From positions 1-64,000 of the forward strand of contig NZ_BCQT01000006.1 of the NCBI RefSeq assembly GCF_001552215.1: DNA of 64,000 nt, given 5' to 3'. Made by a program: the position numbers and the translations under genes. The notes under the pieces are model-generated. The model had not been told where the DNA came from. It did no database searches and saw only the letters and a list, made by a program, of their open reading frames with translations. Shown here in pieces: positions 14,404-51,049 of this stretch. The DNA is from Actinomadura macra NBRC 14102. Lineage in GTDB: Bacteria; Actinomycetota; Actinomycetes; Streptosporangiales; Streptosporangiaceae. The number at the start of each line of letters is the position of its first letter. Within the stretch, counting starts at the first letter, position 1.

Positions 14404-15618
14404 CTACCCGCAAGCCAGGTCAGCAAGTACCACGGTTAGTGCCTCCACTCCCGCCAGACAGTCGGCGGGCTCGGCGTGTTCGGCGGGCGCGTGCGAGATC
14501 CCGGTCGGGTTCCGGACGAACAGCATCGCCGCCGGCACGCGGGCCGACAGGACACCCGCGTCGTGGCCCGCCCCCGTCGGCAGGACGGGAACGCCTCCTG
14601 CCTGACAGGAGCCGACGGCCGTGCCGACGCGGTCGCGCAGCGCGAGGTTGAAGTCGACGATCTCGGTGTAGGACTCCTCGGCCAGGTCCACGCTCACCCG
14701 GTGCGCGCGGGCGGCGACCCTGGCCGCCTCGTCCACCTCCGCGACCGTCCGGCGGACGGCCTCGTCGGCGGGTCCGCGCGCGTCCAGCCAGGCGGTGACG
14801 GACGAGGCGATGGCGTTCACCCCGCCCGGCTCGACCCTGACCTTGCCGACGGTCGCGACGGTGCCGTTGCGCTCGGCGGCCTCCCGTGCGGCAAGGACCA
14901 TCCCGGCGAACGGCGGCATCGGGTCGCGGCGGTCGCGCAGCAGGGTCGTCCCGGCGTGGTTGCCCTCGCCGGAGAAGTCGAACCGCCACCGGCCGTGCGG
15001 GACGATCGCGCTCGCCACCCCGACGGGCTGCCGGAGCGCGCGTCCTTGCTCGACATGGAGTTCGATGTAGCAGCCGATGCGCCCGAGGAGGTCCTCATCG
15101 GGTCCGATCGCCTGGGGGTCGAGCCCGGCGTTGTGCATGACCTCGGCGAAGGTGTGCCCGCCGGCGTCGGTGAGGCCGCGGGCCCGCTCCGGGTCGATCG
15201 CCCCCGACAGCAGCCGCGACCCGAGGCACGCGACCCCGAACCGCGCGCCCTCCTCCTCCGCGAAGGCCCCGATCCCGATGGGCCGCCGGGGTGTGGCACC
15301 GCGTTCGCGCAGCGAGTCGACGGCCGCGAATGCCGAGACGACGCCGAGCGGCCCGTCGAACGCGCCGCCGCCGGGCACCGAGTCCAGGTGGCTCCCGGTC
15401 AGGACGGCGTCGCCGCGCGCCCCGCCGTCCGGGTACCACCAGGCGACCATGTTGCCGTTGGCGTCGTGCTCCACCGGCAGGTCGCGGCGGCGCGCCTCGT
15501 CCACGAACCAGGCGCGGCACTCCAGCTCCGGCGGCGTCCACGCGAACCGGTGGTAGCCGCCGGTCGCCTCATCCCGTCCGACGGGCAGCAGCGCCGCCCA
15601 CATCTCCTCGAAGCTCAT
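14404..15618 (-). CDS. M20 amidohydrolase (allantoate amidohydrolase / N-carbamoyl-amino-acid hydrolase family) in the hut operon
   Basis: Metal-dependent amidase of 404 residues. The family features are [15 protein letters not shown] (metal His and Asp), [17 protein letters not shown] with the catalytic Glu pair, [11 protein letters not shown], and the C-terminal PTGAGHDAG with a metal His. Sequence class suggests allantoate or N-carbamoyl-L-amino acids as substrate, but it sits between hutU and hutF and overlaps the hutU stop by ATGA, so it is co-translated with histidine catabolism. I infer that it may hydrolyse the N-formyl or N-formimidoyl intermediate, replacing HutG. The purine operon at 51-60 kb has allantoicase, so allantoate hydrolysis is not needed from this enzyme. 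Confidence 0.85.
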
Positions 15619-17399
15619 GCCGTCTCATTGTGGGGGGACGACCCCCCACTCCCCCCGGACACCCGCGCATCATCGAGGGGGGACGACCCCCCACTCCCCC
15701 CGGACACCCGCGCATCATTGTGGGGGGACGACCCCCCACTCCCCCCGGACACCCTCATGGGAACCCGGACACCCCGCTCGTCCGCCACCTCGACAGCGCG
15801 CTCGTATCCCGCGTCGACATGCCGCATGACGCCGGTTCCCGGGTCGTTGGTGAGGACGCGCCGGAGCTTCTCCCCGGCGAGCGGTGTACCGTCGGCGACG
15901 CACACCTGGCCCGCGTGGATGGACCGTCCGATGCCGACGCCGCCGCCGTGGTGGATGGACACCCAGGTGGCGCCGGACGCGGTGTTGAGCATCGCGTTCA
16001 GCAGCGGCCAGTCGGCGATGGCGTCCGAGCCGTCCGCCATGCCCTCGGTCTCACGGTAGGGGCTGGCGACCGAGCCGCAGTCGAGGTGGTCGCGGCCGAG
16101 CACGATCGGCGCGCTGATCTCGCCGCGCGCGACGAGGTCGTTGAACAGTTCCCCGGCGCGGTCGCGCTCACCGTAGCCGAGCCAGCAGATCCGGGACGGC
16201 AGGCCCTGGAAGTGGACCCGCTCCCCCGCCATCCTGATCCACCGGGTCAGCGGCTCGTTGTCGGGGAACAGCTCCAGGATGGCCCGGTCGGTGCGGGCGA
16301 TGTCCTTCGGGTCGCCTGACAGCGCCGCCCACCGGAACGGGCCCTTGCCCTCGCAGAACAGCGGGCGAATGTAGGCGGGGACGAACCCGGGGAAGTCGAA
16401 CGCCCGCGTGTACCCGGCGAGCTGCGCCTCCCCGCGGATCGAGTTGCCGTAGTCGAACACCTCGGCGCCCGCGTCCTGGAAGCCGACCATCGCCTCGACG
16501 TGCGCGGCCATCGACGCGCGGGCGCGGGTGGTGAAGCCGGCCGGGTCCTTGTCGCGCTCGGCGGCCATGTCCGCGAACTCGACGCCCTGCGGCAGGTACA
16601 TCAGCGGGTCGTGCGCGCTGGTCTGGTCGGTGACGACGTCGATCGGCGCGCCCCGCCGCAGCAGTTCGGGGACGAGGTCGGCGGCGTTCCCCAGCACGGC
16701 GATCGACAGCGGACGCCGCTGCGCCCTGGCCTCCTCGGCGAGCCGGAGCGCCTCGTCCAGGGAGTCGGCCCGCACGTCGCAGTACCGGTGGGCGACGCGC
16801 CGCTCGATGCGGGACGGGTCGCACTCGATACAGATCGCCACGCCCCCGTTCATCGTGACGGCGAGCGGCTGCGCGCCGCCCATCCCGCCGAGCCCTGCGG
16901 TCAGCGTGATCGTCCCGGCGAGGGTGCCGCCGAACCGCTTCTCGGCGACGGCCGCGAACGTCTCGTAGGTGCCCTGGAGGATGCCCTGCGTGCCGATGTA
17001 GATCCACGATCCGGCGGTCATCTGCCCGAACATCGTGAGGCCGAGCGACTCGAGGCGGCGGAACTCCTCCCAGGTCGCCCACTGCGGCACCAGGTTGGAG
17101 TTAGCGATCAGGACCCGGGGCGCCCACTCATGCGTCCGGAAGATCCCGACGGGCTTGCCCGACTGGACGAGCAGGGTCTCGTCCCCCTCCAGATCCGTCA
17201 GGGACCGGATGATCCCGTCGAACGCGTCCCAGCTGCGCGCGGCCTTCCCGGACCCGCCGTAGACGACCAGCTCGTCGGGGTGCTCGGCGACCTCCGGGTC
17301 GAGGTTGTTCTGGATCATGCGCAGGGCGGCCTCCTGCGGCCAGCCCTTAGCGGTCAGCGACGTGCCGCGCGGCGCGCGGACGGGACGGGGACCGGACAT
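15615..17399 (-). CDS. hutU: Urocanate hydratase with a repeat-derived C-terminal tail
   Basis: NAD-dependent enzyme converting urocanate to imidazolonepropionate. The 594-residue product has the family start [22 protein letters not shown], the NAD-binding [12 protein letters not shown], and [17 protein letters not shown] with the conserved cysteine region. The conserved domain ends near [20 protein letters not shown], then about 50 extra residues follow, made of three 15-residue repeats [15 protein letters not shown] encoded by tandem 45-bp units (15625-15759). The family is normally about 550 residues, so this tail is an acquired extension. The stop overlaps the next ATG (ATGA). The gene lies 10 bases after hutH. 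Confidence 0.95.
15625..15759 (-). repeat. Three tandem 45-bp repeats with GC hairpins inside the 3' end of hutU
   Basis: Copies at 15625-15669, 15670-15714 and 15715-15759; the first and third are nearly identical, the second differs at a few bases. Each holds the inverted repeat GGGGGG-ACGA-CCCCCC, extended to 8-base arms GTGGGGGG/CCCCCCAC in the first copy and at the start of the third. The length (multiple of 3) keeps hutU in frame. Three strong hairpins just before the hutU stop could pause ribosomes or RNA polymerase or protect upstream mRNA. Confidence 0.85.
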
Positions 17400-50113: not shown

Positions 50114-51049
50114 TCAGGAGAAGATGTCGTCGGCGGATTCGGCTGTGCCGGCACGCCGTCCCCACTCGGCGAGTTGCCGCTCGTCAGCGCAGGTCGTGAT
50201 CCGCTCACGCATCTCGTCCGACACGCAAAGCCCACGCCCCTCCAACACAAGAAGCAACATCTTGGCCTCGCCTATGGCCTGGCCTCGGGCCTCGCCTATG
50301 GCCTGGCCTCGGGCCTCGCCTATGGCCTGGCCTCGGGCCTCGCCTATGGCCTGGTTGCGGAGGGCGAAGTCGCTCTTGAACTTGTAGTCGGCGGTACCTG
50401 TGGTCACGAGCTCCTCCAGGATCTTCCGGGCGGCTTGTGGGAGCACGCCGAGCACCATGTCAGTGTACAGCGTGGCGTTTTCGTGCCCTGTGTTCTCGAT
50501 GGTCGCCAGGGCGGCGTGGGTGATCTCCAGGGACTCTTCTGTGTGGGGGCTGACGTTGGTCAGGGCCGCGACGATGGTCAGTTCCGGCATCTCGGCCGCC
50601 TGGGCCGTGGACGTGACGAGGGGGCCGGTGCCGGGGCCGACCACGAGGGGGGTGAGGGTGAAGCCGGGGTGGCCGATGACGACGGGTTTGCGGGCCCAGT
50701 CGGCGACGCGGCGGGCGGGGCAGAAGACCAGGAGGTAGCTCGGGCAGCCGGATCTCGCGTGGAGGGCCGTCAGGTAGACGGGCCAGCTGCGGCATTTCCT
50801 CGGATCGACGGCGCGCTGCGTCTCGGCGACGACACTGATCTTCGGGGTGGGGGAACCCCGTTCGCGGATCTCGACGACGTTGTCGGCGCGGTAGGCGGCC
50901 GGGGTGATCTGGGTGAAGTCCTCCGAGACCGTCCGGACCACGATGTCGTCGGGCACCTTGATGTCGAAGGCGGTGCGGAGTAACTGCACGAGGACCTCGG
51001 GGTGGTCGCGGACGATCTGGATCGGCGACTCGTGTTCGACGGTGACCAT
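50114..51049 (-). CDS. Rpn/PD-(D/E)XK-like hypothetical protein with GQAIGEAR repeats
   Basis: 311 residues of a family common in Actinomadura and relatives. The N-terminal half (SPIQIVRDHPEVLVQLL; KISVVAETQRAVDPRKC; WPVYLTALHARSGCPSYLLV) has the alternating strand/helix and Glu-Gln pattern seen in Rpn-type recombination nucleases, but I cannot confirm a catalytic site. The C-terminal half holds four octapeptides GQAIGEAR/K from 24-bp repeats, then a helical tail MLLLVLEGRGLCVSDEMRER. The downstream fragment at 49871 is its duplicate. Confidence 0.65.
   Translation of the reverse strand: MVTVEHESPIQIVRDHPEVLVQLLRTAFDIKVPDDIVVRTVSEDFTQITPAAYRADNVVEIRERGSPTPKISVVAETQRAVDPRKCRSWPVYLTALHARSGCPSYLLVFCPARRVADWARKPVVIGHPGFTLTPLVVGPGTGPLVTSTAQAAEMPELTIVAALTNVSPHTEESLEITHAALATIENTGHENATLYTDMVLGVLPQAARKILEELVTTGTADYKFKSDFALRNQAIGEARGQAIGEARGQAIGEARGQAIGEAKMLLLVLEGRGLCVSDEMRERITTCADERQLAEWGRRAGTAESADDIFS
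50269..50360 (-). repeat. 24-bp tandem repeat tract (VNTR) encoding GQAIGEAR
   Basis: Three exact 24-base units (50269-50292, 50293-50316, 50317-50340) and a partial fourth. The duplicate gene fragment has only about 1.5 units at 50022-50060, so copy number already differs between the paralogues, the mark of slippage. Confidence 0.85.

Follow-up and report, generated by a model that had tools for sequence, protein, structure and literature searches.

An in-frame tandem array of a dispersed Actinomadura palindrome at the 3' end of hutU

The 3' end of hutU in Actinomadura macra NBRC 14102 carries a repeat feature that we interpret, with good confidence, as a three-copy tandem array of a dispersed, insertion-prone Actinomadura palindrome, which landed at the junction of hutU with the following gene and was amplified locally. 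The stretch of DNA analysed (the window, 64,000 nucleotides) carries on its minus strand hutH, hutU, an M20 amidohydrolase gene, hutF and hutI. In the text below G000 is this genome and the other G numbers are genomes of the genus. The hutU junction contains the following features.

15615–17399, minus strand: hutU, urocanate hydratase with an in-frame tail (residues about 550–594); TIGR01228, 923.8 bits, residues 6–548 of 594
14404–15618, minus strand: M20-family amidohydrolase gene, downstream of hutU; best NCBIfam model NF006770 'allantoate amidohydrolase', 626 bits (cut-off 372)
15615–15618, minus strand: ATGA overlap of the hutU stop and the M20 gene start
15710–15754, minus strand: repeat unit 1, 45 bp (Tandem Repeats Finder and phasing by hand)
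15665–15709, minus strand: repeat unit 2, 45 bp (Tandem Repeats Finder and phasing by hand)
15620–15664, minus strand: repeat unit 3, 45 bp (Tandem Repeats Finder and phasing by hand)
15722–15746, minus strand: palindromic core of unit 1, G6-AGT-G6-TCGT-C6, the exact dispersed core
15677–15701, minus strand: palindromic core of unit 2, G6-AGT-G6-TCGT-C6
15632–15656, minus strand: palindromic core of unit 3, G6-AGT-G6-TCGT-C6

Tandem Repeats Finder reported a repeat at 15625–15754 with a period of 45, 2.9 copies and 95% matches, and the three units obtained after phasing by hand showed pairwise identities of 43/45, 40/45 and 42/45. The hutU frame passes through all three units (15620–15754) and ends in the ATGA overlap with the M20 gene. 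These results confirmed the claim of an earlier sequence-only reading that hutU is extended by three in-frame 45-bp repeats up to that overlap. The same reading had put the added tail at about 50 residues. HutU consists of 594 aa and the urocanase model TIGR01228 stops at residue 548; counting from RHVDAGY, 69 residues remain to the end of the protein, compared with 22–28 at 46 of the 49 other genus junctions (the exceptions having 32, 37 and 48). Because the end lengths were compared in this way with the genus junctions, we place the extension at about 44 residues rather than 50. AlphaFold gave pLDDT values below 50 for residues 550–588 and 590–594 (a mediocre model, mean 67.4, from 18 sequences), and the tail is predicted to be disordered. 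The nearest named hutU is that of Actinomadura darangshiensis, at 93%. The GGGGGG/CCCCCC stem-loop that had been proposed for each unit is present as a stem that closes on a TCGT loop, its arms being the second G6 and the C6; the first G6 lies outside this stem as an extra run. The 45-bp unit of the window contains a TGA in one sense frame, other than the hutU frame, and the genus core is without a stop codon in all six frames. The palindrome can be translated without a stop in several ways, of which the Ser/Gly peptide at the end of HutU is one, and copies read through in several frames give a 17-residue peptide or RGVWGVVPP. Elsewhere in the window, at 50264–50354, a perfect 24-bp repeat of 3.8 copies with a repeated GQAIGEAR was observed in a 311-aa minus-strand ORF (50114–51049).

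The unit is not confined to hutU. A search of the genome with the 25-mer core GGGGGGAGTGGGGGGTCGTCCCCCC, which answered a check proposed in the sequence-only reading, detected it at 21 places with up to 3 mismatches, and the reversed control gave 0. With a shorter core 34 matches were found compared with 3 in the control, a count that takes some palindromes twice, once per strand. The genus scan (up to 2 mismatches) detected the core in 63 of 65 genomes, at 0–77 copies each, with one control hit overall; in an order-level draw it was detected in 114 of 297 genomes, made up, as counted by eye, of 54/56 of the genus and 60/241 from elsewhere. The core pattern was used in place of a loose stem pattern, G6-N9-C6 (up to 2 mismatches), for which the window contained 12 matches where 29.5 were expected. 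The repeat occurs far beyond chance; it was also found inside unrelated genes and in antisense, and two further tandem arrays, with 54-bp units, are present in this genome. A hutU-specific origin was rejected, since copies occur genome-wide.

Among 194 distinct copies, the additional G6 run three bases before the hairpin was kept in 168. Just outside the G6/C6 stem, Watson–Crick pairs were observed at position 1 in 131/194 copies (100.8 expected from column composition) and at position 2 in 176/194 (137.5 expected), and we conclude that the palindrome is maintained because these two pairs covary. No covariation was detected at position 3 in the same 194 copies (80 Watson–Crick pairs, 86.9 expected). 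The sequence to the left of the core varies by genome: one 54-bp array here has ATGAGCGAAGCGAATC, many copies of G005 have CCGACGAAGTCGG, and G002 and G003 have others.

Comparison of sites with and without a copy demonstrated that the palindrome inserts into genes. At four in-gene sites of this genome, in the genes for an error-prone DNA polymerase, atpH (ATP synthase delta), a Dyp-type peroxidase and a DUF4032 protein, the copy amounts to 45 bp relative to orthologues that lack it. The in-gene length was taken from these four sites, and other in-ORF copies (L004, L024 and L026 here and those in G005) were left out. In the polymerase gene, 25 of 25 anchorable other loci (of 29; 30 loci were compared and 4 were not anchored) are shorter by 45 bp; its best model by score, NF004225, fell under the cut-off because only part of the polymerase protein was given. 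The atpH copy measured 45 bp against empty orthologues in G014 and G059, the peroxidase copy a clean 45 bp against G014 and G038, and the DUF4032 copy 45 bp in 3/3 comparisons; the copies in the peroxidase and DUF4032 genes are in antisense orientation. Departures from a net 45 bp were found in the peroxidase gene against G058 (39, and 6 the other way), in the polymerase gene against G014 (29+25), and in atpH, where G048 against G042 gave 42 and G047/G022 against G049 gave 48, each one codon off. Outside genes the length of a copy varies (54, 56, 57 bp and more), and 45 bp is not universal. No consistent target-site duplication was observed at the compared sites, where the boundaries can be shifted by as much as about 5 bp; a direct repeat, CGCTCATGAG, was seen at one hutU site and none was clear at the polymerase site.

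The atpH locus showed presence and absence of a copy at a single site. It could be read in 30 of 65 genomes (including L288–L294, L307 and L316; 3 of the 30 failed the length anchor and were scored as without core), and the copy was present in 5 of the 30 (G000, G021, G048, G047 and G022), scattered on the tree. On the tree of the adjoining 1.9 kb, this distribution requires 5 gains or losses, of which at least 4 are forced by well-supported branches. Filled sites stand beside empty ones in the pairs G000/G014, G021/G059 and G048/G042, and in G047 and G022 with G049. This pattern could arise by recurrent insertion, by recurrent precise loss, or by strains exchanging a short segment.

We also compared hutU 3' ends in relatives, a second check that had been proposed, by reading the hutU junctions of 50 of the 64 genomes with a match. 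Members of the family were found at 4 of the 50 (this genome, G033, G026 and, degenerate, G012), and only in this genome does hutU read through them. At this junction G033 holds a clean 56-bp insert between two copies of CGCTCATGAG and G057 is without the insert; the exact pre-insertion state of the hutU studied here was found in no relative among the 50 junctions. The idea that the Ser/Gly tail was selected at the protein level, because it serves HutU as a linker or in localisation or assembly, agrees with the intact frame and ATGA overlap, but the tail is present at 1/50 junctions only, other copies are translated in other frames and the peptide is predicted to be disordered; we regard this idea as very improbable. 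The closest relative by hutU, G014 (L171), has a hutU with a different 13-residue tail of its own, ASGGPSPAGGGTA, encoded by another small hairpin, CCGGCGGGC-CGTC-GCCCGCCGG (identified by eye). A different 48-bp palindrome, TGCGGCGTGTTGTTGTTATG...CATAACAACAACACGCCGCA, was observed right after the hutU stop at 7 of the 50 junctions (L172, L178, L182, L183, L187, L190 and L268, hutU-M20), and its arms co-vary, for example TGTCGTCCTTAA with TTAAGGACGACA.

The position of copies relative to genes was determined for 78 clusters in four genomes, namely this genome and the first-listed places of G005 (40 regions), G003 (16) and G002 (4), and 35 of the 78 were dropped because the coding signal was weak on at least one side. 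At the 43 clear sites, the copy runs along both flanking genes at 35, against them at 7 and is convergent at 1 (35 vs 7: p = 1.5e-5, the sites being not fully independent). At 19 of the 35 along-gene sites the core begins no more than 40 bp after an upstream stop, and a script scored 7 as having an open frame across the copy. ATGA was found at several other copy sites besides hutU.

The sequence-only reading had suggested a role for the hairpins as a regulatory device of the hut operon, either stabilising hutU mRNA or tuning translation of the coupled M20 gene. The covariation outside G6/C6, the predominance of copies along genes (35 vs 7) and the occurrence of a different palindrome directly after the hutU stop at 7/50 genus junctions are consistent with such a role. 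Against it, the unit is dispersed genome-wide, lies in unrelated genes and also in antisense, and the family is missing from 46/50 hutU junctions. The predicted RNA fold of units or array was not stronger than that of dinucleotide shuffles (z = −0.81, +0.43 and −0.93 for single units and −1.55 for the array) and is ordinary for the composition; enabling G-quadruplexes in ViennaRNA made no change, and the best structure of unit 2 is not a plain hairpin. A role specific to hutU was not borne out, the unit being a dispersed repeat, and we consider the regulatory explanation unlikely.

Retention of the reading frame, which had been read from the array at hutU, is real and non-random across the genus. 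Two scans of the genus for exact cores lying next to each other (in one of which 5 of 35 pairs were dropped for skipping a middle copy) yielded 95 arrays with periods of 39–57 bp in 36 genomes, and in 83 of the 95 all periods are divisible by three. Compared with the expectation of one-third this gives p about 1e-27, and with one array per genome (32/36 divisible by three) p about 7e-12, values that are too small because arrays in related genomes may share descent. The periods step through 45, 48, 51, 54 and 57, which is what selection for frame predicts. Arrays with long periods (72–96 bp) gave a similar result, 17 of 21 being divisible by three. In G055 and G062 (e.g. L419) arrays were seen to consist of longer 72–96-bp units with GGAGCGGAGCGC-type segments between the cores, and G062 contains up to six exact cores spaced 96/87 bp.

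Arrays were further examined for their context at 59 classifiable loci, some of which show the same array twice and 12 of which are unclear on both sides. At 17 of them the array comes after an upstream stop and has an open frame into the downstream gene; at 8 it is contained in an open frame; and at 2, one being that of the window, it extends the upstream gene. In-frame context tracked a 3n period (25/29 compared with 2/7, Fisher p = 0.0056) in a set of 36 of 60 loci from which repeats of one array and unclear flanks had been removed by hand, an association that is in part a mechanical effect, given that all frames are exposed by an array whose period is not 3n.

One further match had to be considered, on the opposite strand of the array.

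15630–15691, plus strand: Rfam guanidine-II match RF01068, antisense to hutU, in units 3 and 2; 36.0 bits (gathering 32)

The match, with E = 0.0016 for the whole window, would have the plus strand encode a guanidine-II (mini-ykkC) riboswitch. It comprises two hairpins with ACGA tetraloops on G+C-rich stems, whose letters resemble the crystallised Gloeobacter violaceus hairpins as given in excerpts of PMC5486947. A guanidine-II leader would precede a guanidine-related gene in sense orientation, but the match lies antisense within hutU, in a dispersed repeat family, and no adjoining plus-strand target gene was identified. Only 2 of 20 other array loci scanned passed, both antisense to the element, and the coding strand mostly bears the TCGT and not the ACGA loop (35 vs 7). 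Because the match is antisense to the operon and so few of the other array loci pass, it is probably a look-alike, as judged from sequence, and a true riboswitch at this site appears highly improbable.

We place at the same low level the explanation that the array is an assembly artefact, or a product of purely local slippage unrelated to a mobile repeat. Sequencing through six consecutive G or C is difficult, and the G000 assembly is a draft of 55 contigs; the array, however, sits within a 977-kb contig, and the same kind of array is present in single-contig genomes, for example G002, G007 and G008. A purely local origin is excluded because dispersed copies exist.

The behaviour of the Actinomadura palindrome can be read, by analogy, as like that of Rickettsia palindromic elements (RPEs) and mycobacterial MIRUs; it is likened to both by behaviour, not sequence. 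According to excerpts of PMC2229807, RPEs are dispersed palindromes of 105–146 bp with stop-free frames that lie in frame inside conserved protein genes. The Actinomadura family resembles them in being a palindrome dispersed in many copies (21 places here, 63/65 genomes), in having stop-free frames and in its in-frame insertion into conserved genes whose orthologues lack it (four genes, 45 bp, with the exceptions listed above). It differs in its length within genes, 45 bp, and in often forming tandem arrays, with 3n periods, at gene junctions. MIRUs, as described in parts of PMC12548453 and PMC4213456, are small repeats of an actinobacterial genus that occupy −4-coupled stop/start junctions and in some cases are tandem; those at senX3-regX3 measure 77 and 53 bp. 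Insertion at an overlapping stop and start that keeps the coupling was observed here also, in G033 compared with G057 (the 56-bp insert flanked by CGCTCATGAG), whereas the Actinomadura family has a G6/C6 hairpin core and is found inside genes as well.

REPs, in the available text of PMC3733652, are likewise short dispersed palindromes that are mostly beside genes, some being inside ORFs including DnaE2 genes. They are tagged by GTAG or CGTC, whereas the Actinomadura hairpin has TCGTC in its centre; no GTAG/CGTC tag was found at the hairpin end in the aligned copies, where the hairpin foot is NGT/ACN or similar. A search for the Y1 (RAYT) transposase, PF01797, gave 0 matches in G000 and none in the copy-rich G005 and G055, and detected it in 19 of 65 genus genomes. 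Mobilisation by a RAYT/REP system was rejected, since PF01797 is missing from this genome and its occurrence among the 65 genomes does not follow copy number. The palindrome may be moved by a dedicated enzyme; no mobilising enzyme was found. A literature search, mostly without subscription papers, gave nothing recognised as the Actinomadura repeat.

For the tandem array of a dispersed palindrome at hutU, the following course of events is proposed. The element would insert at or close to stop/start junctions and, in its 45-bp form, within genes, and one copy would have arrived at the overlap of the hutU stop with the M20 start. Amplification, presumably through slippage, would then have added whole units of 45 bp (15 codons) at a time. 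Since each unit comprises 15 codons and is open in the frame of hutU, ribosomes would read through it and HutU would acquire a flexible tail, and the ATGA overlap, able to couple translation of the M20 gene, would be retained. Selection for the reading frame would purge insertions and expansions that disrupt hutU or the M20 gene. For HutU itself the consequence is most likely close to neutral. A stronger proposal, which we put forward tentatively and consider somewhat doubtful, is that the family is an active, codon-phased mobile palindrome, forming 15-codon modules in coding DNA and whole-codon arrays at stop/start junctions, repeatedly gained or precisely lost at atpH, without a known REP transposase, and that it keeps adding peptide modules to housekeeping proteins.

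Palindromes lodged in bacterial proteins have been described in Rickettsia and in a small number of other groups. In Actinomadura, one short family is seen empty, filled and tandemly amplified within a single genus, in genes and at coupled stop/start junctions, and the divisibility of its periods by three provides a simple and strong statistic. Two questions can thereby be put to the test: by what means such elements move when no transposase is obvious, and how large a peptide insertion is tolerated by conserved proteins. There is a warning for annotation too: in such genomes some N- or C-terminal Gly/Ser/Pro extensions may be repeat insertions, and the same may be true of some guanidine-II riboswitch calls, which are perhaps false.
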